Assembly (NCBI RefSeq): GCF_040581405.1
Contig: NZ_CP137157.1
Span: 934,001-998,000, forward strand
Origin: Komagataeibacter sucrofermentans DSM 15973
Lineage (GTDB): Bacteria > Pseudomonadota > Alphaproteobacteria > Acetobacterales > Acetobacteraceae
Reading direction: 5' to 3'
Length of the DNA: 64,000 bases
The notes beneath the pieces are model-generated. The model was not told the origin of the DNA and searched no databases. It saw only the letters and a program-made list of their open reading frames with translations. Both the position numbers and the translations under genes were made by a program. Below are positions 2,844 to 14,000 of this stretch, in pieces. How positions within the stretch are numbered: the stretch's first letter is position 1; the number at the start of each line of letters is the position of its first letter.

Positions 2844-2950
2844 GATGGACAGGTTCTTTGCGGTTGTAAGAAGAAGGCGGTAACAGGAGAGTGTTCTCGG
2901 AGGTCGGGGGCTTTTTGTCAAATGACAAGGTAGTCCGCGCCCATGCCCCA

Positions 2951-3871
2951 ATGGATGGAAGCGTGCAGCAGCAGGACAGAACGGCAGGCAGGATTCTCGT
3001 CACGCCAACCGGCCCCACGGGCTGGGGGCGGGGGCGGCTGCTTGCAAGCTGGGCCATTATGGCCGCCGTGCTGGGCCATGGGCTGGTTGCCGCGTGGCTG
3101 CTGCCCGCCCGCACACCCGTGCCCGCGGCGCCAGCGGAAAAAAACAGCATTCAGGTCTTTTTTGACCGGCCAGGGGTTGCGGCGCCCCCCCCGGAGGCTA
3201 CGCCACAGCCACAGCCACAGCCACAGCCACAGCCACAGCCACAGCCACAGCCACAGCCACAGCCACAGCCACAGCCACAGCCACAGCCACAGCCACAGCC
3301 ACAGCCACAGCCACAGCCACAGCCACAGCCACAGCCACAGCCACAGCCACAGCCACAGCCACAGCCACAGCCACAGCCACAGCCACAGCCACAGCCACAG
3401 CCACAGCCACAGCCACAGCCAAAAGCCATGGCCACGCCGCCTGTTGCCGCGCGGCCTGCCGTAATGCCTGCCGCGCCTGCTGCTGCGCGGTCCAGGCCAT
3501 TGTCTGCTTCTCCCCCCCTCCGGCCCACTGGCGCACCGGCCGGGTCAGCCCCGGCGCTAACGCAGAATGGGCCAGGAGCGCCCAGCACGGCGCAGACAAT
3601 GGCGGCAGCACCAGCCGCGCCCCATTGCACGCCGCCCGCCTGGCGTTATCCCGCCATGGCCCGACACATGCATGAGGAAGGCAATGCCATGGTTGATGTC
3701 GTGCTGGGCAGCGAGGGGCAGGTAACACAGGTCAGCCTGAAATCCGGTACCGGCTATGATGACCTGGACAGCACGGCCCTTGCCGCTGCGCGCAAGGTGC
3801 AGTGCACCCCGCAGGGGCACCCGCTGGAGGGTACGCATGTTCTGCTGCCGGTTACATTTCACCTGCATTGA
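2951..3871 (+). CDS. tonB: Energy transducer TonB with long Pro-Gln spacer
   Basis: Inner membrane protein of 306 aa that couples the proton motive force to outer membrane receptors. One membrane helix near residues 34-55 (LLASWAIMAAVLGHGLVAA) is followed by a periplasmic spacer with 36 uninterrupted Pro-Gln dipeptides (about residues 85-156). Then comes a Pro/Ala-rich stretch and a C-terminal TonB domain (WRYPAMARHMHEEGNAMVDV; final LLPVTFHLH). ATG 2951 has no clear ribosome site; GTG 2891 in the same frame is the alternative. The gene is divergent from the copper receptor module, so it may be its dedicated TonB. The low-complexity spacer is unusually regular. Confidence 0.88.
   Translation: MDGSVQQQDRTAGRILVTPTGPTGWGRGRLLASWAIMAAVLGHGLVAAWLLPARTPVPAAPAEKNSIQVFFDRPGVAAPPPEATPQPQPQPQPQPQPQPQPQPQPQPQPQPQPQPQPQPQPQPQPQPQPQPQPQPQPQPQPQPQPQPQPQPQPQPQPKAMATPPVAARPAVMPAAPAAARSRPLSASPPLRPTGAPAGSAPALTQNGPGAPSTAQTMAAAPAAPHCTPPAWRYPAMARHMHEEGNAMVDVVLGSEGQVTQVSLKSGTGYDDLDSTALAAARKVQCTPQGHPLEGTHVLLPVTFHLH
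3203..3418 (+). repeat. (CCACAG)36 hexanucleotide tandem repeat inside tonB
   Basis: 216 bases made of 36 uninterrupted copies of CCACAG, read as Pro-Gln in the tonB frame. Every unit looks identical, including third codon positions, which points to recent expansion by slippage rather than selection on protein alone. Because the unit is 6 bp, gain or loss of copies keeps the frame and only changes spacer length. Confidence 0.97.
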
Positions 3872-4483: not shown

Positions 4484-4551
4484 AGCTGCTAAGTCATTGA
4501 AATCTGGCGCGCCCTGCTGGATTCGAACCAGCGACCCACAGCTTAGAAGGC
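4484..4551 (+). repeat. attL: left direct repeat with 3' fragment of tRNA-Arg
   Basis: 68 bases matching 13903-13970 with only two mismatches. Positions 4505-4551 (47 bases) are identical to the 3' part of tRNA-Arg(TCT), from its CCA end to the anticodon loop; beyond 4551 the tRNA similarity stops. This is the usual distal scar of an element that integrated into a tRNA gene. Confidence 0.92.
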
Positions 4552-4642: not shown

Positions 4643-5251
4643 TTATGGCCTCTGGCCGACGAACGGAACGAGCGGCGCCTGTCCACCGCACTTGCCGGTG
4701 TTCCAGGTATCAATCATTAGCTGCACCTTGCGCCGCAGGGCTTCTCGGTCAGCGATCAGGCGTGCGGCCTCGGCGTGTCGGACATCATCATTCTGGGCGA
4801 ACACGGACGCCTCGTAGCCAAGTTGTCGCCCCATCTCCACATCAGGCATGGACGACAACGGCGCATAGGCCACCGGCAGGCTGATGGCCTGCCCGCGCGT
4901 CCGGCTGGCATCCGCCTGCACCCCGAACGTAGGCACAGTGGTGGCCGCTCCTACGCTGAACTGGCCGCCCTGCGTGAACTGGCCGGAGAGCTGTAGCGTC
5001 ACGTCGCCTGCAATCGTGCCCACAACCGGGTCGGGCGTGTGCTGGCTGCACTGGGCTGTGCGCACGGCGTGCGTGAATCGGGCATCCTGCTCCGCCGTCC
5101 ACTCGCCGGCATGCGAGACCGACACTACCCCGGCCTGCGCCAGGCTGGACTGGATGGATGCCATGGCCTGCGGGATCGTGGTCTGCACGGATGCCTGATG
5201 GGCGCAGGCAGATAGGCCGAGGGCGCAGGCCAGTGCCAAGACCGCCCTCAC
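4643..5251 (-). CDS. Putative lipoprotein, island cargo
   Basis: A 202 aa protein of unknown function. The N-terminus is a lipoprotein signal with lipobox LSAC (Cys16), so it is predicted to be exported and lipidated. The rest is a soluble, Gln/Thr/Ala-rich sequence; AEAARLIADREALRRKVQLM near residue 165 looks helical. Its ATG overlaps the TGA of the upstream papain-like gene by 4 nt, so the two are almost certainly co-translated and likely work together. I recognise no domain. Phage-type spanin or immunity lipoproteins are possible comparisons, without direct support. Confidence 0.72.
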   Translation of the reverse strand: MRAVLALACALGLSACAHQASVQTTIPQAMASIQSSLAQAGVVSVSHAGEWTAEQDARFTHAVRTAQCSQHTPDPVVGTIAGDVTLQLSGQFTQGGQFSVGAATTVPTFGVQADASRTRGQAISLPVAYAPLSSMPDVEMGRQLGYEASVFAQNDDVRHAEAARLIADREALRRKVQLMIDTWNTGKCGGQAPLVPFVGQRP

Positions 5252-6048
5252 GCCACCCCCCTCAGATACGCATCATTGGCCGCGACCAGCGCCTCCCAGT
5301 CCGGCTGGCTCGGTGCCAGAGCCGTGGCGGGCAGCAGCTGGCGCCAGGCGAGCGCATGGGCTTCCATGATGCGCGAGCGCATCCAGCGCCAAGTCGCGCG
5401 CTGCGTGGTGCCCCAGGTGAGCAGGGTCACGATGTCCGTGTCATCGGTGCCGGTGTAATCCCAGCCCAGCAGGCAATGGCCGTTCGCGGGATTAGGGTTC
5501 GGATCGCCATGCCCGGCCGGGGTGTCGGTATCCCACACCGGAGCCAGTGCGCCGTTCTCGTCCTCCCACAGATCGGCGTCAGCCAGCTGCACGCCGAGAT
5601 AGGCCGCCGACAGGCCTGCCATGACATTGCGCATGCCATTCAGGTCACCCGGATCCGCGCTGCCCCACAGCGGGAACAGGGTCTGGTTGGTCACGGCATA
5701 CCCATCGCGCAGCGCCGTGGTCAGCACATCGACCTCCACGCCGCCGCGATCCGTGGCCGGGGTGCCCGGCACATAGCCGGTGGAGCGGGAATAGAACGCC
5801 ACCGCCTGCGCTGTGGTGATGTCGGTCTGGAAGCCGCCCAGCGCGGACGTGGCGCGGATATGGTTGCCGATCCCGGCCGAGGTGCAGTCGCCCAGCATGT
5901 CATTACCCAGCAGCAGCGGGGCAGGATCGATATGGCCGCGGTCAAGCCGGGCAGGGGCCTGCCGGGCCATGAAGCCACGCATGGCCGACATGGAGGGCTG
6001 GCCCGCACGCGTCTGCGCAGGACGACAGCCGAGCATTCGCTGTGTCAT
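5248..6048 (-). CDS. Papain-like cysteine peptidase-like protein, island cargo
   Basis: A 266 aa protein with no signal peptide visible. Cys55 in LGNDMLGDCTSAG and His191 in NGHCLLGWDYTG are placed like the Cys and His of papain-fold enzymes (GxCxA, then GH followed by a strand). TWGTTQRATW near residue 211 could stand where NSWG occurs. I infer a cysteine peptidase or transglutaminase-like fold; the substrate is unknown. It is the first gene of a two-gene unit with the lipoprotein downstream (4-nt overlap) and is divergent from the HD gene, with 36 bp between starts. Proteins of this look also occur in phages, so it may be a phage-derived remnant. Confidence 0.55.
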   Translation of the reverse strand: MTQRMLGCRPAQTRAGQPSMSAMRGFMARQAPARLDRGHIDPAPLLLGNDMLGDCTSAGIGNHIRATSALGGFQTDITTAQAVAFYSRSTGYVPGTPATDRGGVEVDVLTTALRDGYAVTNQTLFPLWGSADPGDLNGMRNVMAGLSAAYLGVQLADADLWEDENGALAPVWDTDTPAGHGDPNPNPANGHCLLGWDYTGTDDTDIVTLLTWGTTQRATWRWMRSRIMEAHALAWRQLLPATALAPSQPDWEALVAANDAYLRGVA

Positions 6049-6084
6049 ATTCTACCTATCTGGATTTTATGGGATTATCGACGG

Positions 6085-6606
6085 ATGACGGATTTGATCT
6101 CACGGACCGATGCATTTGCCGCAGCGGCACACGCCAGCATCGACCAGCGCCGCAAATACACGGGTGATCCGTACATCGTGCATCCGCGCCGTGTTGCGCA
6201 GACCGTGAAGGAGGTCGGTGCTCGCGATGAGGTGATCGCAGCAGCGCTCCTGCATGACGTGGTGGAAGATACACCAGTCACGCTGGATGAGATCAGGGCT
6301 GCATTTGGTGAGGACGTGGCAGCCCTGGTCGAGATGGTGACAGATGTCAGCCGACCGAAAGACGGCTACCGCAAGGTGCGCAAGGCGATGGATCGGGATC
6401 ATCTGACCGAGGCCTCGGCCGAAGGTCAGACCATCAAGCTGGCAGACCTGATCGATAATACGGCGTCCATCACCCGATATGATCCGGGATTCGCAAGGGT
6501 CTACATGCGGAAAAAAGCGGAACTGCGTGGCATTCTTAAGAAAGGGAATAAAACATTGCGCCAGCATGCTGCAGCTCTTATGAAGCTGCATGGTTGGCAA
6601 AAATAA
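6085..6606 (+). CDS. Stand-alone SpoT/MESH1-like HD phosphohydrolase
   Basis: A 173 aa protein matching the hydrolase half of RelA/SpoT enzymes. The His-Asp metal motif is spread as HPRRVAQ, LLHDVVEDT and IKLADLIDNT, the last corresponding to the IKLADRLHN region. No synthetase, TGS or ACT domain follows, so it resembles small alarmone hydrolases that remove the 3'-pyrophosphate of (p)ppGpp or act on related nucleotides. The start ATG 6085 is chosen because similarity begins at once (FAAAAHASIDQRRK). Upstream in-frame codons run antisense through the papain-like gene and are not credible. On an island it could counter an alarmone-making toxin or phage-triggered signalling; that is inference. 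Confidence 0.82.
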   Translation: MTDLISRTDAFAAAAHASIDQRRKYTGDPYIVHPRRVAQTVKEVGARDEVIAAALLHDVVEDTPVTLDEIRAAFGEDVAALVEMVTDVSRPKDGYRKVRKAMDRDHLTEASAEGQTIKLADLIDNTASITRYDPGFARVYMRKKAELRGILKKGNKTLRQHAAALMKLHGWQK

Positions 6607-6912
6607 GATTCATTTAAATGCGAAATATCAGCTAACGTCCTCTTTCCGACCATAAGGACCCTGAGCACCGTTACGCATGGCGGACGTGCCCAATTCTAAC
6701 TTAACGCAGCCACTTCAGGCTAGTGATCGCATTGCAATCGCGTTGAGGCGCCACCCGTAGCGTAATAGCAGAATGCATATCCTTCGCCCGCGAACGAGGC
6801 ATTGTCTCGCTTGCTTAATCGATGCTCCTGATGCAAGATTCAACTGGTGGTGCGTGCGAGCTGCAGGGCTCGAGCTCTCGCACGAGACGCCCTGCGAGCA
6901 GGGGATCATAAT
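6607..6912. other. Non-coding stretch before the AAA+ gene
   Basis: 306 bases without a credible gene. GC falls relative to the preceding cargo. Short inverted segments rich in CTGCAGG/CCCTGC lie at about 6862-6900, just upstream of the ATPase ribosome site, and could be a 5' leader hairpin or operator. I see no clear promoter. Confidence 0.4.
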
Positions 6913-8031
6913 ATGAACGATCAGCGAAACGTCCGCCGGTTACGTAGCGTCGGCCAACGCGACAATGATCATGGGCGCATTAAGGACACGATGACCGCGC
7001 TCATTGAGGAAGCGCACTTCCAGCAGAAGCATGGCCTCGCCTCTCGTCTCGTAAGACGTACGTCCCCGACCGTAGGTCGCGCTGTTTCTGCCCCGTGCTC
7101 CACCGACAGAGAATCGCCCATGTTGCCCGACAGTTTGCAGCTTCTGCTCCGTGAGACCTTTCCGCGTCGTCGGATCAATGAACTGGTTCACAGTCGCGCA
7201 ATCCGTAGTGAGGTTCGGGAGCTTATCGCCGAGATCGCGCAGACGTCGCTTCTCCGATCGCACTCACTTGAACCGCGTCACACGGTGCTACTGGTGGGAC
7301 CGCCGGGTACTGGCAAGACCAGTCTTGCTGAAGCCCTCGCAGCTGAACTCGGCATGCCGTTCCTCACGGTCCGCTATGAAGGACTCGTCGGCAGCTATCT
7401 GGGAGAGACCGGCTCTCGGCTGCAGGAGATTGTGCAGTACGCATCACGCATGCCGTGTGTCCTGTTCTTCGACGAGTTCGAAAGTGTCGGCAAGGAGCGC
7501 TCTGACGCGCAGGAGACCGGTGAAATCAAGCGCGTGGTAAGTTCGCTTCTGATGCACATGGACGCACTGCCGACCCACTGCGTGGTGGTCTGTGCCACGA
7601 ATCATCCGGAGTTGCTTGATCGAGCAGTCTGGCGACGGTTCGAGGTCCGACTAACGCTTCCAGCACCTGGCGCTACCGAATTGAAGGAGTGGCTGGCCAG
7701 AACCAATAAGACTTTCGGCGATATCGGCATGACCGCAAAAGAGTTCATTGAACTATTCTCGGGTGAAACTTTCTCCGAAATAGAAGCCATAACTCTCGAC
7801 GCTCGTCGCAAAGTCGTTTTATCTTATGGTAAGAAGACCCCGGCGCTGGCCTTCAAGGAGGCTGTAGCCTCATGGGAGCGGCGGCGGCGAGTAAGTGGGA
7901 TAAACGCAGTTGGCACAACGACCAATCGTAAGAATGCGGCGAGAATCCGAAAGCCAGAAGCGAATAAAGGGAAGGAAACCCCGGTTTCCTCGAGCCTTCT
8001 CTTCGGAGACGCAGAGGATCAGATTAGGTAA
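6913..8031 (+). CDS. AAA+ ATPase paired with subtilisin-like peptidase
   Basis: A 372 aa protein. One AAA+ module: Walker A GPPGTGKT near residue 129, Walker B VLFFDEFES near 183, sensor-1 ATNHPE near 230, and an arginine finger region RAVWRRFE near 239. The first 90 or so residues are basic and not recognised. ATG 6913 has AGGGGAT about 8 nt upstream and is preferred over the in-frame start at 6847. The gene runs into the peptidase gene, overlapping by nearly 100 nt. AAA+/S8 peptidase pairs recur in bacterial genomes and have been proposed as conflict or defence modules; the ATPase would remodel or gate the peptidase. The mechanism here is unknown. Confidence 0.85.
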   Translation: MNDQRNVRRLRSVGQRDNDHGRIKDTMTALIEEAHFQQKHGLASRLVRRTSPTVGRAVSAPCSTDRESPMLPDSLQLLLRETFPRRRINELVHSRAIRSEVRELIAEIAQTSLLRSHSLEPRHTVLLVGPPGTGKTSLAEALAAELGMPFLTVRYEGLVGSYLGETGSRLQEIVQYASRMPCVLFFDEFESVGKERSDAQETGEIKRVVSSLLMHMDALPTHCVVVCATNHPELLDRAVWRRFEVRLTLPAPGATELKEWLARTNKTFGDIGMTAKEFIELFSGETFSEIEAITLDARRKVVLSYGKKTPALAFKEAVASWERRRRVSGINAVGTTTNRKNAARIRKPEANKGKETPVSSSLLFGDAEDQIR

Positions 8032-9634
8032 CAAGTTCAATGCGTTAGAACGAAGCGTCGATGACATTCTGAGTGGCGCCGACTTGTCCACCCGTCCTTC
8101 CGAGGTCAGCCCCGATCGTGCATTGGTCTTCGAGGTCATTGGGCCAGTGGCGAAGTTCATTACTGCCGCAAGGCAGGTCGGCCTCGAGTGGCTTACCGAG
8201 GCGCAAGACGGCAGTCCCTTCAGGGGAGAGGACGTCGATGAGGAAGATGAAGATGTAGAGGGCGACGGCTCCGCAGTAGGAGAAACACTGCTCTATGTGA
8301 CCATGCCCACAATCGGCGGGCTCCAGCGTGTTCTTGCTCTTTGGAATCGTTATATCGCAGGCCGTCCGAAACCAACCGACGACGGCAACTGGTGGGCGCT
8401 TTTCGGTTACCTTTCTGACCTTCGAACGTGGTCGGCGCGAGACCGGGTGGATCCCATTTCCCAAGCCTACGTCAACCGGATGCTTGAGCGATATCCCGAT
8501 CGACCGGTCCGATTGGAGCTTGATCTCTGGTTTAGGGAATCATCCGAGCTAAGGGAAAGCGCAGAGGCTTACGTCGAGGCACTGATGGACTCGGTCGGTG
8601 GCGAAGTGCTTGATTTCGCCACAATTGAGCCAATCTGCTACCAGGCGGCGCTGGTCGAACTACCAGGTAACCGAGCGCGGCAGCTTGGTTCTTTGCGCGG
8701 CCCCTTGGCGAATGCCGACAAAGTGATGCGGGTCCGCCCACAGTCGCTTTACACGACGGATCCGCGCAATCCCATCGACAATCCCATCGATATTCGTCCT
8801 ATTCCGACGGCGGTCGACGAGCGCGAGCCGGTGGCAGCCCTCTTGGATGGCTATCCTGTTCAGAACCACGTTCTTCTCGCGAACCGAGTTGATATCGAGG
8901 AAGTCGACGTAACCGGCGCGATGTCACCGGTTAGGCGGCGTCAACACGGCACCGCCATGGCGTCACTTATCATCCACGGCGATCTTGCCTCCGAACAGGA
9001 TCCAATCCCCCGGCTCCTCAAGGTAGTGCCAATCCTCGCTGCGCCTCAAGGAGCAAACGAGGAGTGCACTCCCCCAAACAAATTGCCGATCCTGATGGTG
9101 TATCGGGCGGTGACAGCCCTTGTCGAAGGTCTTGGCGGCGAGCCGCTTGGCCGTCGCGTGGTGGTAATCAACCATTCTATCTGTGATCAAGAGGCGCCAT
9201 TCGTTCGAGGTGCGAGCCCTTGGGCGAAGCTGCTGGACTATCTAGCCCATCGATACGACCTTTTATTCGTCGTGAGCACCGGAAACTGCAATGCGCAGTT
9301 CCACCTTGACAGCTACGAATCCTGCGAAGAGTTCGAAGATGCAGCCGAGCTCGAGCGCCAGGTTGTCATCCTTAGGTCGATCGAGAAAGCGAAGGGCACC
9401 CGTTCGCTGCTTAGCCCGGCTGAGTCGGTTAATGCTCTCACGGTGGGGGCGGTGCACGAGGATGCCGCCGGTGACTGCCCGATTGGCCACATCGAGCCTT
9501 TCGCGGCAGCCGGCGTCACAAATATCGGCTCCGGTCTCGGGCTGGGGGTAAACCGAGCCATCAAGCCGGAGGTGGTCGAAGCCGGTGGTCGACAGCTTGT
9601 CCGCACTCAAACGATTGATGGCGTTATCTGTTGA
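7934..9634 (+). pseudogene. S8 (subtilisin-like) peptidase truncated by IS21 element
   Basis: The open frame encodes about 566 aa and ends in the IS terminal repeat; native sequence stops at 9628. About 300 unrecognised residues precede an S8 fold. The Asp (VAALLDGYP, about residue 305), His (RRQHGTAMASL, about 338) and oxyanion Asn (VVSTGN, about 451) are present, and the KPEVVEAGG strand that normally precedes the catalytic serine is reached. The GTSxAxP serine motif and everything beyond are missing. The right flank of the IS does not resume the peptidase. The product should be proteolytically dead. ATG 7934 was taken; TTG 7910 is possible. It is translationally linked to the upstream AAA+ gene. 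Confidence 0.85.
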
Positions 9635-9658
9635 TTTTCACTGAGAACTGACCCGGGT
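9629..9658 (+). repeat. IS21 left terminal inverted repeat
   Basis: 30 bases identical to the reverse complement of 12090-12119. A degenerate second copy of the GAATTGACCC core follows at about 9669. Confidence 0.95.
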
Positions 9659-9714
9659 TTTTCATCAGGAATTGACCCAGCCAGATGCTATTTCAGGCAT
9701 AGTGAGGCGGGCGG

Positions 9715-10494
9715 TCAAGAAGAGGATCTGTCCTTTTTGTTTTTTGACGCGGCGGTGCTGGCGCGGAACCTGTAGCTGTCATTTCCTGTCTCGAGGATAT
9801 GACAGTGATGGGTCAGCCGATCGAGGAGCGCCGTCGTCATCTTCGGGTCACCAAAGACATCACCCCATTCACTGAAGCTGAGATTGGTTGTGATGATGAC
9901 ACTGGTGCGCTCGTAGAGGCGGCTGAGCAGATGGAACAGCAGGGCGCCCCCTGATGCACTGAAGGGGAGATAACCGAGTTCATCAAGGATCACGAGATCC
10001 AGGCGGAGCAGCCTGTCGGCAATCTGCCCGGCCCGGTTGGCGATCTTTTCCTGTTCGAGCGCATTGACCAGGTCGACCGTTGACCAGAAGCGCGCCTTCT
10101 TGCGGTGATGGGTGATCGCCTGGATGGCCAGCGCGGTCGCCAGGTGGGTTTTCCCGGTTCCCGGGCCACCGATCAGCACGACATTTTCAGCACGCTCGAT
10201 GAAGTCCCCGCCATGGAGCTGGCGGATCATGGGCTCGTTGACCTGCGTATCGGCAAAGGAGAACCCGGACAGGTCCTTGTAGGCGGGGAACCGGGCGGTC
10301 TTTGTCTGGTAGGCGATGGAGCGGACTTCGCGTTCGGCCAGTTCCGCCTTCAGGAGCTGCGAGAGGATGGGGATGGCCGCCTCGAAGGCGGGCGCGCCCT
10401 GCTCGATGAGGTCGGCCGTGGCCTGGGCCATGCCATACATCCGCAATCCACGGAGCATGACGACAAGTGAAGCAGCAGCAGGATCATGACGCAT
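9715..10494 (-). CDS. istB: IstB-like ATPase of IS21 element
   Basis: A 259 aa helper ATPase for IS21 transposition, of the DnaC/IstB AAA+ family. Walker [10 protein letters not shown] and Walker [13 protein letters not shown] are clear, followed by the usual TTNLSFSEW motif. ATG 10494 overlaps the end of istA by 11 nt, as normal for IS21 elements, and is chosen over the longer frame from 10605. The length and motifs look intact, so the element may still be active. Confidence 0.95.
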
Positions 10495-12016
10495 GGCGGC
10501 TGTCCCTTCGCAGGATGTCATACCGCCCTGTATCGGCGCACGGTTCGTGTGCGAGCACCAGGGCCTGTGGGGCATCAAGCCGGGGAACCACGGTTCTCTT
10601 GGCATCGATCAGGCGATGAAGCGTATTGAGAACATGGGTCTTGGTCGCCACGCCGTCTTCAAGTGCCAGTTCAACCGCGCAGAGGACAGCCTGCTCATCA
10701 TGCTGCAGCACAAGGGCCAGGATTTCAGCCATTTCCCGGTCGCCTCCAGGCCGCCTGAGCAGTTGATCCTGCAGGGTCCGGAAGGCGGCTGGCAATTCGG
10801 TAAACGGCGCGCCATTGCGCAGGGCGCCCGGTTTGCGCTGGATGACCGCCAGATAATGCCGCCAGTCATACACCGTGCGGCCTGGCACACCATGCGAACG
10901 CGTGATGATCCGGTCATGCACGCACAGAACCTGCCCTTCGGCGATAATGCGTAGCCTGTCGGGATAAACCCGCAGGCTGACCGGACGATTGGCAAAGGAG
11001 GCCGGCACGCTGTAGCGATTGCCTTCGAACTGGATCAGGCAGGTTGGTGAGACGCGCTTGGTCTGTTCGACAAACCCGTCAAAGGGCCGCCCCGGGATCA
11101 TGAGGTGGGGACGTTCGCTGGCATGGACCTCGGAGACGCTGTGCGGCAATTCAGCATGCTGCAGCCGTTCCCAACAGTCCAGGCAGCGGGCTTCCAGCCA
11201 GGCGTTCAGCGCCCCCAGATCAGGAAAGGCAGGCAGATCCTGCCAGATCTGGCGCCGGGCATCCTGCACGGTCTTCTCGATCTGCCCTTTCTCCCATCCG
11301 GCTGCCGGATTGCAGAAGGTCGCCTCGAACAGATAATGGCTGGCCAGGGCCATGAAGCGCAGATTGACCTGACGTGCCTTGCCCGACCCAATCCGGTCCA
11401 CGGCGGTCTTCATGTTGTCAAAAATACCCCGCCGCGGCACGCCACCGAGCACGCGGAAGGCCTCGGTAAGCGCATCGAAAAGCATCTCGTGGGTCTGCAG
11501 GGGATAGGCCCTGAGTATGAAGGCCCGGCTGAAGGACAGTTTGGTGTGGGCAACCTGCAGCTTGACGCGATGCCCGGCAATCACCGCCCAGTCCTCGCCC
11601 CAGTCGAACTGGAAGGCTTCCCCGGGCTGGAAGCACAGGGGCACGAAAACACCCCGACCCGTTGTCTGGCGTGCCTGGCGCTGTTCGTGTTTCCACTGCC
11701 GGATGAAAGCGGCCACCCGTCCGTAGGACCCATCATAACCCAGCGCCACAAGGTCTTCATGCAGTCGTCGCGCCGTGCGCCGGTTCTTGCGGGGGCGAGC
11801 GGCTTCCAGGACCAGCCATCCCCTCAGCCTGTCAGCAAACGGGTCCAGTCGGCTGGGACGTTCGGGAACCTGAAACCGTGGTTCAATACTCTGTGCCCGG
11901 AGATATTTCCGGATCGTATTGCGTGACAGTCCCGTCCGGCGTTCGATCTCGCGGATCGGAAGATGATCCCGGCAGTGCCACCGACGGATCACACTCAGAA
12001 GCTCCATGTCAATCAC
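10484..12016 (-). CDS. istA: IstA transposase of IS21 element
   Basis: A 510 aa DDE transposase. The N-terminal helix-turn-helix ([20 protein letters not shown]) binds the terminal repeats. The catalytic core shows FQFDWGEDW (first Asp), IFDNMKTAV (second Asp) and EKGQIEKTV (Glu). The full length is as expected for the family. It is transcribed leftward with istB downstream. Confidence 0.96.
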
Positions 12017-12089
12017 TCCTCAAACCCCCAGCAGATGCTGCCGGGGAGTGTGAAGGCATGGGTCAAATCTCGATGAAAATTTCCGCCCT

Positions 12090-12119
12090 ACCCGGGTCAG
12101 TTCTCAGTGAAAATCAACA
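12090..12119 (-). repeat. IS21 right terminal inverted repeat
   Basis: 30 bases that are the exact reverse complement of 9629-9658. The host sequence resumes at 12120 with GCCTGAAACC. Confidence 0.95.
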
Positions 12120-12373
12120 GCCTGAAACCTCATGCCCTCAATGACCAGGCGCACCCATGCCTGCGGGAGCTCGAGTTCGGCCGCGAGATCTACGATGTCG
12201 AGATCTACGGCAACGGGCAGGGTGAATACCTCGGCATCGTCGCCGAGGACGGCGGACCCAGCAGGATTGTTTTCCGTGGGCCTCTGGTCAGGGAGGGCGA
12301 TGTCAGGCTGATCCGGGCGCGTGGTGTGCAGGCATGGTTACAGAAAGGGAGCGAGGACAATGGCAGGGGCTGA
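12107..12373 (+). CDS. Small hypothetical protein, 5' end altered by IS
   Basis: An 88-codon frame whose first possible start (GTG 12107) lies inside the IS terminal repeat, so the native 5' end was probably lost. Residues after about 20 look like real protein (FGREIYDVEIYGNGQGEYLG, IVFRGPLVREGDVRLIRA). The end overlaps the next gene by 14 nt, fitting an operon with the HTH and integrase genes. No family recognised. Confidence 0.5.
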   Translation: MKINSLKPHALNDQAHPCLRELEFGREIYDVEIYGNGQGEYLGIVAEDGGPSRIVFRGPLVREGDVRLIRARGVQAWLQKGSEDNGRG

Positions 12374-12716
12374 GAGCTTACCATTTTGGCCCCGTTACCT
12401 GACCAAAGAACTGGCGGCGCGATACCTTGGGGTCAGCACATCCACCTTTGATGACGAAGTAAAGCAGGGATGGTGGCCGCCCGCGCGCCCGCGCGGCGGC
12501 CGGGGCGGCAGGTTGACGTGGGATCGCAACTTGCTCGACCTATACGCCGATCAGGCTTCTGGAATCGGGGTGGGGGCACCGGCTGCAACCAGTGCCCCCG
12601 TTTCTGCAGAAAGCCTGGTCATGACGCCATCTCTAGTGGAGAGAATGAATGCCACGCTCCCGCAGAACCGGGTTGAACGTCGTGCGCAAGAAGCGCAGCG
12701 ACGGTTCGGTAATTGA
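12360..12716 (+). CDS. AlpA/excisionase-like HTH protein
   Basis: A 118 aa protein. YLTKELAARYLGVSTSTFDD near residue 13 is a MerR/AlpA-type winged helix motif as found in excisionases, followed by a basic Gly/Arg segment (PPARPRGGRGGRLTW) in the wing position. ATG 12360 was chosen; the tail overlaps the integrase start by 68 nt in another frame. Position directly before the integrase fits a recombination directionality factor, which would steer excision; this is inferred from context. Confidence 0.65.
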   Translation: MAGAESLPFWPRYLTKELAARYLGVSTSTFDDEVKQGWWPPARPRGGRGGRLTWDRNLLDLYADQASGIGVGAPAATSAPVSAESLVMTPSLVERMNATLPQNRVERRAQEAQRRFGN

Positions 12717-13842
12717 GTATTTTTATGATCGTGCGACCAAGAAATTCCTTGGTCATACGCGCGAGGCGGCCCTTGAGCGCCTCAGCTTTCAGGATCCAGT
12801 GACCGAGGCGGGTATCGTGCCCGGTTCGATCGCCGCCCTGATCGTGGATTATCTGGGGGATGAAGAAGTGCAGGGCAGGCTGCGCGAGAGCACCCGCAGG
12901 CTCTATCGCGGCTACCTGGACCGCATGCGTGATGACTGGGGAGACATCCCCGCCAGAGCGATTACGCGTCAGGAAGTAAAGGCGATCAAAAAGCGCATGC
13001 GCGGTACGCCACGCAAGGCCAACCAGATCTTGTCTTTGTTGCAGATCCTTCTTGCGCGGGCAAAGGAACAGGGGATCGTGACTGAGAATGTTGCTGAGCG
13101 ATTCGGTCGGCTGCACATAGCCAGTCGCGTGCAGATATGGAGCTATGAGATGGAGGATGCTTTTCTTGTCCGCGCCCGTCCTTCGCTTCAACTCGCCTAC
13201 ATGCTGCTGCTTTATACCGTCCAGCGGCCCAGCGATGTGCTGAGCATGGATGCTTCTCGTATTTCCGAACGCGACGGACGGCTGTTCATAGCCTTGCAAC
13301 AATCCAAGACAGGGACGCTGCTGGATGTTCCTGTGCATGAGAGATTGGCGGGGATGCTGCGAGAGCGCATGCGTCAGATTGAACGAGAAGCGATAAGCAG
13401 CCCTGTTAATCTCGTAGGCAGAATTGGCAGGCAAAGCCCCAAGCTTCTGGTACCAAGCCCTACTGGCAAGAAATGGGCGCGGCGAAATTTCTGTCGGGCA
13501 TGGGATCAGATCATAGCCAGGATGGCACAGGGGGCAGCCAGACAGCTTTTTCGTGAAGGTTTCTCGAAGGAGGAAGTCAGAGAACAGCTGGCGGAGAGCC
13601 ATCGGCAGCGTCGCGACCTTCGTCGCACAGGTATCGTGCGTCTGGCGGAAGCAGGCGCAACTACACCACAGATCGCCTCTATCAGCGGCCATGGGATCGA
13701 TTACTGCCAGCGGATCATAGACACATATCTTCCGCGTCGCACCGAGGTCGCGGTCGCAGGTATGCAACTGTGGGAGCAGCATCAGCAGAGGGAGACCAGC
13801 AAGGTGGTCTCGATCGCTGCAACGCGGGGTCGTCTGGGGTAG
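12649..13842 (+). CDS. Tyrosine-type integrase of the island
   Basis: A 397 aa site-specific recombinase. An N-terminal SAM-like core-binding domain (STRRLYRGYLDRM...TRQEVKAI) is followed by a catalytic domain with Arg in TVQRPSDVL, Lys in QQSKTGT, RDLRRTGIV, SGHGIDYCQ and nucleophile Tyr in IIDTYLPR. The usual first His of HxLR is Arg here (RRDLRR), a tolerated variation in the family. It ends 60 bp before the right attachment repeat and next to the intact tRNA-Arg, so it is the enzyme that targeted this site. Confidence 0.93.
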   Translation: MPRSRRTGLNVVRKKRSDGSVIEYFYDRATKKFLGHTREAALERLSFQDPVTEAGIVPGSIAALIVDYLGDEEVQGRLRESTRRLYRGYLDRMRDDWGDIPARAITRQEVKAIKKRMRGTPRKANQILSLLQILLARAKEQGIVTENVAERFGRLHIASRVQIWSYEMEDAFLVRARPSLQLAYMLLLYTVQRPSDVLSMDASRISERDGRLFIALQQSKTGTLLDVPVHERLAGMLRERMRQIEREAISSPVNLVGRIGRQSPKLLVPSPTGKKWARRNFCRAWDQIIARMAQGAARQLFREGFSKEEVREQLAESHRQRRDLRRTGIVRLAEAGATTPQIASISGHGIDYCQRIIDTYLPRRTEVAVAGMQLWEQHQQRETSKVVSIAATRGRLG

Positions 13843-13902: not shown

Positions 13903-13970
13903 AGCTGCTAAGTCATTGAAAAATGGCGCGCCCTGCTGGATTCGAACCAGCGACCCACAGCTTAGAAGGC
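13903..13970 (+). repeat. attR: right direct repeat overlapping tRNA-Arg
   Basis: 68 bases matching 4484-4551 with two mismatches; 13924-13970 lies inside the intact tRNA gene. Just outside, three copies of TGCAAA (13871-13895) sit between the integrase stop and the repeat and look like integrase arm-type sites. Confidence 0.92.
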
Positions 13971-14000
13971 TGTTGCTCTATCCAACTGAGCTAAGGGCGC
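13924..14000 (-). tRNA. tRNA-Arg(TCT)
   Basis: 77 nt read on the minus strand. The acceptor stem GCGCCCT pairs with AGGGCGC, the anticodon loop CTTCTAA gives anticodon TCT, the T-loop is TTCGAAT, and the CCA end is encoded. Integration of the island rebuilt a complete gene here. Confidence 0.97.

Follow-up and report, generated by a model that had tools for sequence, protein, structure and literature searches.

A truncated Iet-type gene pair beside an IS21-family element

The window analyzed here is a 64,000-nucleotide stretch of Komagataeibacter sucrofermentans DSM 15973 (contig NZ_CP137157.1, positions 934,001 to 998,000), and our subject is a pair of overlapping genes in it, named ietA and ietS below, which encode an AAA+ ATPase and a subtilisin-like S8 protease:

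6913..8031, plus strand: ietA, intact AAA+ ATPase; PADLOC PDLC04232, 2.5e-115; motifs aligned with 12 homologues
7910..9634, plus strand: ietS, truncated S8 protease, 573 native residues plus 1 encoded by an insertion sequence (IS); PADLOC PDLC04233, 2.9e-173

The start of ietA was placed at the ATG at 6913, the longest open reading frame (ORF) beginning at GTG 6847. The two frames share 122 bp on the plus strand with the ATPase gene first, and the overlap measures 122-149 bp across the five loci measured. Pfam recognized AAA in the ietA product (1.2e-33) and Peptidase_S8 (PF00082, 9.4e-10) in that of ietS, which excludes chance ORFs. The original prediction, made from the letters alone, had proposed this pair, and its coordinates and overlap were borne out by ORFs, Pfam and PADLOC; the profile searches it had suggested as a check named the family.

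By its profile matches, the pair belongs to the known Iet family. The first product is an AAA+ ATPase of the IetA family, covering positions 15-322 of the 330 in the PADLOC profile PDLC04232, and the second, encoded adjacent to and downstream of it, is an S8 protease of the IetS family. IetA carries GPPGTGKT, FFDE and RRF motifs that align with those of the 12 homologues and that we take to be Walker A, Walker B and an RRF motif, respectively. As the best solved relatives of its profile are Cdc48/p97-type ATPases, IetA is described here as a predicted Cdc48-like ATPase.

The peptidase had been predicted to be a large one. Its S8 assignment holds, but the gene is truncated: the match spans only positions 1-567 of the 855-position PADLOC profile, and the native protein stops after 573 of about 866 residues, where an IS21-family element begins. 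The left end of this element supplies the final residue and the stop codon.

9629..12119, minus strand: IS21-family element, 2491 bp, with inverted terminal repeats and istB and istA models
9715..10605, minus strand: istB (NF038214, 1.6e-82)
10484..12016, minus strand: istA (NF033546, 5.5e-96)

In the alignment with the 12 homologues, the window IetS retains the regions of the catalytic Asp and His and of the oxyanion Asn and is without the Ser region. The GTS serine motif is present in 11/12 homologues, and the window gene ends upstream of it; the twelfth homologue (L013, Bradyrhizobium BTAi1) has an in-frame stop immediately ahead of the motif. The catalytic serine is Ser607 in the numbering of a full-length copy, L046, which is identical to the window ietS over the shared part. 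The window truncation lies before Ser607, and the complete Asp/His/Ser protease is found in L046 and not in the window copy. A profile search of the genome at E<=0.001 found no further piece of IetS. Judged from its sequence, the window IetS cannot work as a protease, and the copy is a broken member of the Iet family.

The IS21-family element has 9 full copies in the genome, the window copy included, and also occurs in Komagataeibacter and Acetobacter plasmids, a distribution that, with the flank shared by the phages phiKM1, phiKX1 and phiKX2, points to a host probably in or close to Komagataeibacter. As a separate observation, copies L002 and L007 have the same flank on one side, suggesting an IS-mediated rearrangement or duplication in this genome.

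A decayed prophage integrated at tRNA-Arg

The original prediction placed the pair in a tRNA-borne island of lower guanine-plus-cytosine (GC) content. This was confirmed, the GC fraction being 0.58 for ietAS and 0.60 for the whole element against 0.645 for positions 14500-64000, and the island ending at a tRNA-Arg gene:

4505..4551, plus strand: distal attachment-site (att) repeat, 47-bp core, exact direct repeat of 13924-13970
4643..5251, minus strand: phage gene p202, left flank of the cargo slot described below (phrog_28078, 1.1e-102), conserved in slot loci
5248..6048, minus strand: phage gene p266, left flank of the cargo slot (phrog_19005, 1.1e-114), conserved in slot loci
6049..6606, plus strand: HD-domain gene, start not fixed (PF13328, 5.7e-19)
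12321..12716, plus strand: ORF of 131 amino acids (aa) adjoining the integrase, unmatched in Pfam and NCBIfam up to E=0.01
12649..13842, plus strand: tyrosine-type phage integrase (PF00589, 8.8e-08)
13924..13970, plus strand: tRNA-side att repeat, within the 3' end of tRNA-Arg
13924..14000, minus strand: tRNA-Arg (TCT), integration target (ARAGORN)

An extended comparison of the att sites over 90 bp gave 81/90 identical positions. Inside the repeats lie two phage-family genes, the HD-domain gene, ietA, the ietS fragment, the IS element, two small ORFs and the integrase, whose DNA is 87% identical to a stretch of genome G260 and 85% to one of the congeneric genome G249. The integrase and the att repeats at a tRNA gene are as in a temperate prophage, and because no virion genes were recognized among the genes scanned between 4505 and 13970, the element is a remnant. 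The same core bounds 9.4 kb in the window and 46.8 kb, on one contig, in G249. The G249 prophage has the same flank genes, and among 10 of its ORFs scanned between the att cores, seven match families of head, tail or packaging proteins (terminase, head-maturation protease, head decoration, sheath, tape measure and two baseplate proteins), two match phage families of unknown function and one is without a match.

A longer version of the same element is found in the viral contig IMGVR_UViG_2846444558_000003 (L046), which matches window positions 4643-9629 with 100% identity over 4,987 bp. Beyond the position of the IS in the window, this contig continues with the full 866-aa ietS, a third gene that we name ietX, and then an endolysin, tail fibre and baseplate module. 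Missing from the window element are the last third of ietS, at its 3' end, all of ietX and the genes for the virion; its net deficit against G249 is about 37 kb. When L046 4950-14740 was searched against the genome of the window at the DNA level, the search returned related prophage tail stretches, a single short match at 73% and 38 bp belonging to the window itself. The integrative island of the original prediction is indeed mobile and tRNA-borne, but att repeats, L046 and G249 describe it more exactly as a prophage remnant, decayed, integrated at tRNA-Arg and of myovirus type.

The perfect identity to L046 suggests that the break in ietS is recent. This bears on a possible use of the fragment which, together with IetA, might act as a decoy without catalytic activity, or as a dominant inhibitor, against the IetS of incoming elements, in a form of anti-addiction. 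Its 573 residues do retain the N-terminal units described below and much of the S8 domain, and the intact ietA could neutralize an incoming IetS; against this, a protein without part of the S8 core probably misfolds, and so recent a break would be untested by selection. We regard such a decoy as improbable and keep to the view of a broken Iet member.

Elsewhere in the window, an ORF with a very long Pro-Gln dipeptide repeat (2891-3871), TonB-like by eye, lies near an opposite-strand receptor-like gene.

A cargo slot of variable content in related prophages

The right flank of the locus, which carries the gene lip208, matches 17/19 genomes of the genus at E<=0.001, some by short pieces only. 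Twelve stretches were fetched, two from the genome of the window (L057 and L058) and ten (L089-L098) from 10/16 other matching genomes. Genes p202/p266 and lip208 bracket variable content in 11/12 of them, L058 having only a weak lip208 match; with the L046 contig, which also has both flanks, the slot loci total 12.

The content of this slot is diverse. It is ietASX in L046, a DndB/DpdB-like 338-aa protein (DpdB 1.9e-09, DndB 1.4e-13) with a 316-aa protein in L057, the second prophage of the window's own genome, a HicA toxin gene in L090 with a 143-aa partner that recurs in L092, a membrane-like protein of 443 aa in L091, and an FkbH-type enzyme with further genes in L096; the remaining cargo consists of proteins without a recognized domain. 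The ietAS pair thus lay in a slot for changing cargo within a myovirus prophage of the Komagataeibacter type. A slot reserved for defence genes was considered and rejected, since PADLOC matched 1/10 slot proteins scanned, and the region is called a cargo slot here.

Two side observations concern this region. The L057 pair (11243-13206; G000:C1:1351243-1353206) has a GC fraction of 0.39 and its 316-aa member has no Pfam or PADLOC match, making it a candidate two-gene module. A second insertion place lies between p202 and p266 (L090 8503-10206, L092 4768-6030, L097 6252-8063) and holds a 420-aa gene, UmuC-type polymerase-like by eye; in L090 and L097 a UmuD-like gene stands before it.

The location of the pair raises the possibility that it is superinfection-exclusion cargo, IetA sensing a phage product and licensing IetS without any role in element stability. 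A variable prophage slot between conserved phage genes, like the P2/P4 hotspots that hold antiviral systems in the passages available of PMC9122126, is consistent with this, as is a second viral contig of different origin, L048, where ietA-ietS-ietX lies between tail genes and a CI-like repressor. However, the other slot cargo is mostly unrecognized as defence (HicA and its partner, the FkbH-type enzyme, the membrane-like protein), and no published phage test of this branch was found. We hold this explanation to be possible, at rather less than even likelihood.

Structural model of full-length IetS

About 300 residues precede the S8 domain in the window IetS, as originally predicted, and a recognition role had been proposed for them. 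A model of the full-length L046 protein, obtained with AlphaFold from 19 sequences, reached a predicted local distance difference test score (pLDDT) of 81.7 and a predicted template modelling score (pTM) of 0.87. In this model, two consecutive b-a-b-b-a-b units (b, beta strand; a, alpha helix) precede the protease, at 72-173, including a low-confidence loop at 101-123, and at 200-277. C-terminal of the protease, a beta-sandwich is modelled at 698-832.

The IetS profile had no match among PDB sequences up to E=0.01, and folds were compared instead, using the whole L046 model rather than its N-terminal part alone. The closest folds are those of subtilases that carry a beta domain at the C terminus. 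The best of them, KP-43 (1wmd), aligns with a Z score of 25.7 and a root-mean-square deviation (rmsd) of 3.2 over 381 aligned residues, as for an S8 subtilase fold, and ProN-Tk-SP (3afg) aligns with residues 99-848 at Z 22.5 and rmsd 6.5, a comparison that barely tests the parts outside 295-703. In subtilases, propeptides of the I9-like kind are ferredoxin-like b-a-b-b-a-b domains that lie ahead of the protease and bind to its active site. The model suggests that the N-terminal units may be tandem propeptide-like domains, inhibitory or chaperone in function, rather than a ligand sensor, so that a recognition role for this region is not evident.

A third gene, ietX, follows ietS in one branch of the family

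The place directly 3' of ietS is taken by ietX in 10/13 loci opened. These are the six nearest relatives of the window (L012, L013, L043, L044, L046 and L048), whose unbroken products are 292-308 aa long, and L186, L187, L188 and L190, L186 being 97% identical to L043. In L046 and L048 the ietS and ietX frames overlap by 4 nucleotides (nt). A 32-row IetA tree places the window together with five rows that bear IetX on one side of a branch with 100/100 support; L046 has no separate row, its IetA being the same as that of the window, and L186-L190 are not among the rows. The window's own genome was searched and is without ietX.

The occurrence of ietX is restricted. It is shown by none of 31 other Iet loci (L045, L141-L152, L157-L174), some of which are near duplicates and four of which (L141, L165, L170 and L172) break off too close to ietS for a judgement. 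IetX was also found in 0/385 class genomes, against 23/385 for the IetS profile at E<=0.001, in a search whose control matched 4/4, two of these being in the profile itself. A general association of IetX with Iet systems was therefore rejected. Phage records gave 0/50,697 matches for IetX and likewise none for IetS, whereas IetX matched 5/72,556 plasmid records and 5/394 and 3/391 genomes of the L012 and L013 families, counting L012 and L013 themselves. As far as can be judged from gene order and phylogeny, a three-gene Iet branch with ietX is an addition to the known two-gene family. A third Iet gene was undescribed in the titles and abstract openings among the literature matches listed, which is not proof of its absence in print.

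The product resembles nothing recognized in the collections searched: the same four members gave no Pfam match up to E=0.01 and no PADLOC match up to 0.001, one member gave no PHROG match, and the profile gave no match among PDB sequences up to E=1. An AlphaFold model from 4 sequences had a pLDDT of 46.1, too poor for a fold search, and IetX is assigned no fold here.

Three of the 13 loci lack ietAS alongside, and two of them place IetX beside other genes. In G821 (L189 4778-9333), an IetX-like gene follows that of a 1211-aa protein with a 4-nt overlap, and no ietA or ietS match was found within the 17 kb read. Eleven plasmid records match the 1211-aa protein, with five CHAT-domain and five TPR annotations, one record carrying both; a nucleotide-binding motif was noted by eye in the middle of this protein. 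On a Tolypothrix plasmid (L099 5734-7302), a shorter IetX-like form lies 60 bp from a caspase-family gene, with a SUMF1-family gene beside it, and two further cyanobacterial records have the same match. The third locus, G1244, holds a degraded IetX remnant. Open-frame lengths had suggested a fusion of IetX with a second domain in G818 and G821. The sequence itself lends this no support, a start codon standing where the upstream gene stops or close by, and a fusion now looks less likely.

IetX thus adjoins genes of three protease kinds, for which reason we suspect a protease substrate, effector or adaptor. A stronger version would make it an executioner or adaptor shared by three unrelated systems (IetS, CHAT-type and caspase-family) and activated by proteolysis, IetA restraining IetS and IetS activating IetX by cleavage. 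Analogous logic is known from caspase-gasdermin and CHAT-Csx30 pairs. With IetS at ten loci, two of them 97% identical, the CHAT-type case in G821 and the caspase-family case on the Tolypothrix plasmid as its basis, this version is offered tentatively, as the less probable one.

Distribution and integrity of the modules

Relatives were found in 71 plasmid records and 20 viral-contig loci, with integrase and ParB families among their neighbours; as these collections contain mobile elements only, the counts are not a mobile share of all homologues. The mobile setting anticipated by the original prediction was thereby recovered, many relatives being on plasmids, in viral contigs or near integrases. 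Among 249 genomes of the family, the IetS profile matched 23 at E<=0.001, of which 8, the window's included, fell below 1e-100. The profile also picks up 1 or 2 of the 14 control genomes, so the weak matches include some from outside the window's branch. Ordinary metabolic neighbours at several relatives would suit a housekeeping AAA+ protease pair that lies on a genomic island by chance, but the sporadic distribution (23/249 family and 23/385 class genomes) and the plasmid, viral, integrase and ParB associations make this very improbable.

Regarding integrity, the ietA frame stays open across 93% or more of the matched span in the 31 loci checked, among which L013 and L147 have a broken ietS and L044 and L046 a broken ietX. 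The L044 ietX has a frameshift and that of L046 an in-frame stop after 250 codons. Broken ietS or ietX genes occur in 5/11 IetX-clade loci against 1/25 others (Fisher p=0.006), an excess to which no weight is given: there are few loci, L186 is nearly the same as L043 (97% identity), the window and L046 form one lineage, and frameshifts may be sequencing errors. Two of the breaks are of interest in themselves, the BTAi1 ietS remaining open in frame beyond its stop (L013 10001-12649) and L187 10430-7880 having an ietS frameshift upstream of the serine.

Open ietA genes beside broken ietS or ietX genes would be expected of a prophage-stabilizing toxin-antitoxin system in which the antitoxin cannot go first. 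In its pure form, this explanation makes IetS a general toxic protease, IetA its inhibitor and IetX a second antitoxin or chaperone, phage defence being incidental. In the passages available of the cited sources, the SGI1 sgiAT genes are a functional toxin-antitoxin pair in Escherichia coli assays, with a protease toxin and an ATPase antitoxin, and resemble the ietAS stability system of pTiC58 (PMC5006074); a Mycoplasma pair behaves likewise (PMC8562856), and deletion of the antitoxin alone is lethal in a minimal mycoplasma (PMC6755753). Against addiction as the whole explanation, the presence of IetAS in a Pf prophage correlates, by correlation only, with lytic-phage resistance of isolates in a study whose available passages call the mechanism unknown and report a lysogenization test that gave no lysogens (PMC11878078), and at L012, genes for a CBASS cyclase and for E1-E2 follow ietASX, about 4-7 kb further downstream. 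We consider addiction alone a credible contender that nevertheless falls short of an even chance.

Interpretation

The window is likely to contain a decayed tRNA-Arg prophage that holds the dead remnant of a three-gene ietA-ietS-ietX module, disabled by an IS21-family element and a deletion. What was directly observed is the anatomy, the truncation, the repeated att core, a longer copy that is identical where shared, the slot of the related prophages and the linkage of ietS to ietX. A single IS-associated deletion would have taken away the missing third of ietS together with ietX and the genes for the virion. With these removed, the system is dead as a protease system, though ietA is intact. 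The phage-defence or conflict module of the original prediction is thus upheld at the level of the family, which is catalogued as anti-phage in PADLOC and behaves as a toxin-antitoxin, but the window copy has no working protease.

Several points weigh against this interpretation. No target duplication flanks the window IS copy, and since a duplication accompanies only 1/9 full copies in the genome, its absence is weak evidence for a deletion. The NCBIfam equivalog models IteA and IteS gave 219.6 bits against a cut-off of 510 and 41.1 bits against 900, in a scan of the window genes; truncation also depresses the IteS score, and the missed cut-offs make the pair a divergent branch of the Iet family. 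The PADLOC yield of the slot is low, as given above, and among 8 viral contigs with p266, IetA occurs only in that of L046, within the stretches examined. With its in-frame stop, even the longer L046 copy may lack a working IetX. Finally, SGI1 sgiAT under its own promoter caused no post-segregational killing, according to the available passages of PMC5006074.

For an intact module, a mechanism can be proposed. IetA, a Cdc48/FtsH-type AAA+ ring, would be made first from the overlapping frame, bind or remodel IetS and keep it inactive, as antitoxin or gate. IetS would be a subtilase with two propeptide-like domains ahead of it and the beta-sandwich behind. Loss or inactivation of IetA, for instance upon loss of the element or infection by another phage, would release IetS, which would cut a partner, in this clade most likely IetX, causing growth arrest or death. 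The prophage would thereby be kept in the cell and competitors excluded.

Iet systems were first a plasmid stabilizer and later a phage defence, with a mechanism called unknown in the Pf study (PMC11878078, in part). A dedicated third gene, found elsewhere beside CHAT-type and caspase-family genes, provides a concrete candidate for the IetS target, and if the executioner or adaptor role holds, intact ietA-ietS-ietX would be a prophage-carried proteolytic switch. The window exemplifies the death of such a module, by an apparently recent IS21 break of the toxin with the antitoxin intact, and the cargo slot helps define a place in Komagataeibacter-type phages to mine for further modules. Temperate myoviruses of Komagataeibacter have been described (PMC8566455, in part), the covered passages of a Komagataeibacter mobilome paper do not mention Iet (PMC13028821), and a literature search on Komagataeibacter prophage defence found none.

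Comparison with known systems

The founding pair is reportedly ietA/ietS of pTiC58 (Yamamoto 2009), and anti-phage IetAS is said to come from Gao et al. 2020. Like the pTiC58 genes, the window pair is an AAA+ gene followed by an S8 protease gene on a mobile element; it differs in being prophage cargo with overlapping frames and a broken protease, and in having relatives with an extra ietX. The Gao and Pf systems consist of the same two families, the Pf copy being phage-carried like that of the window, whereas the window pair scores below the NCBIfam equivalog cut-offs and a third gene is unmentioned for Pf in the passages available of PMC11878078.

In SGI1 sgiAT and the mycoplasma pair T133/A132, an S8 protease toxin is combined with an AAA+ antitoxin whose gene comes first, as in the window. 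These pairs reside on other host elements, and the available passages of their sources mention no third gene (PMC5006074, PMC8562856, PMC6755753).

With the P2/P4 hotspots, the locus shares a small variable region between two conserved phage genes. In contrast to them, the flanks here are p202/p266 and lip208/endolysin, the hosts are acetic acid bacteria, and the region is a cargo slot only, known here from its genes. The Komagataeibacter phages phiKM1, phiKX1 and phiKX2 also bear comparison. No S8 protease or AAA ATPase is annotated in the stretches of them that were opened, but all three match the p202/p266 flank at the DNA level, and phiKM1 has HicA/HicB-like genes and an HD-type gene beside it, the gene under the DNA match of the HD-domain gene being annotated as a (p)ppGpp synthetase of the RelA/SpoT family.

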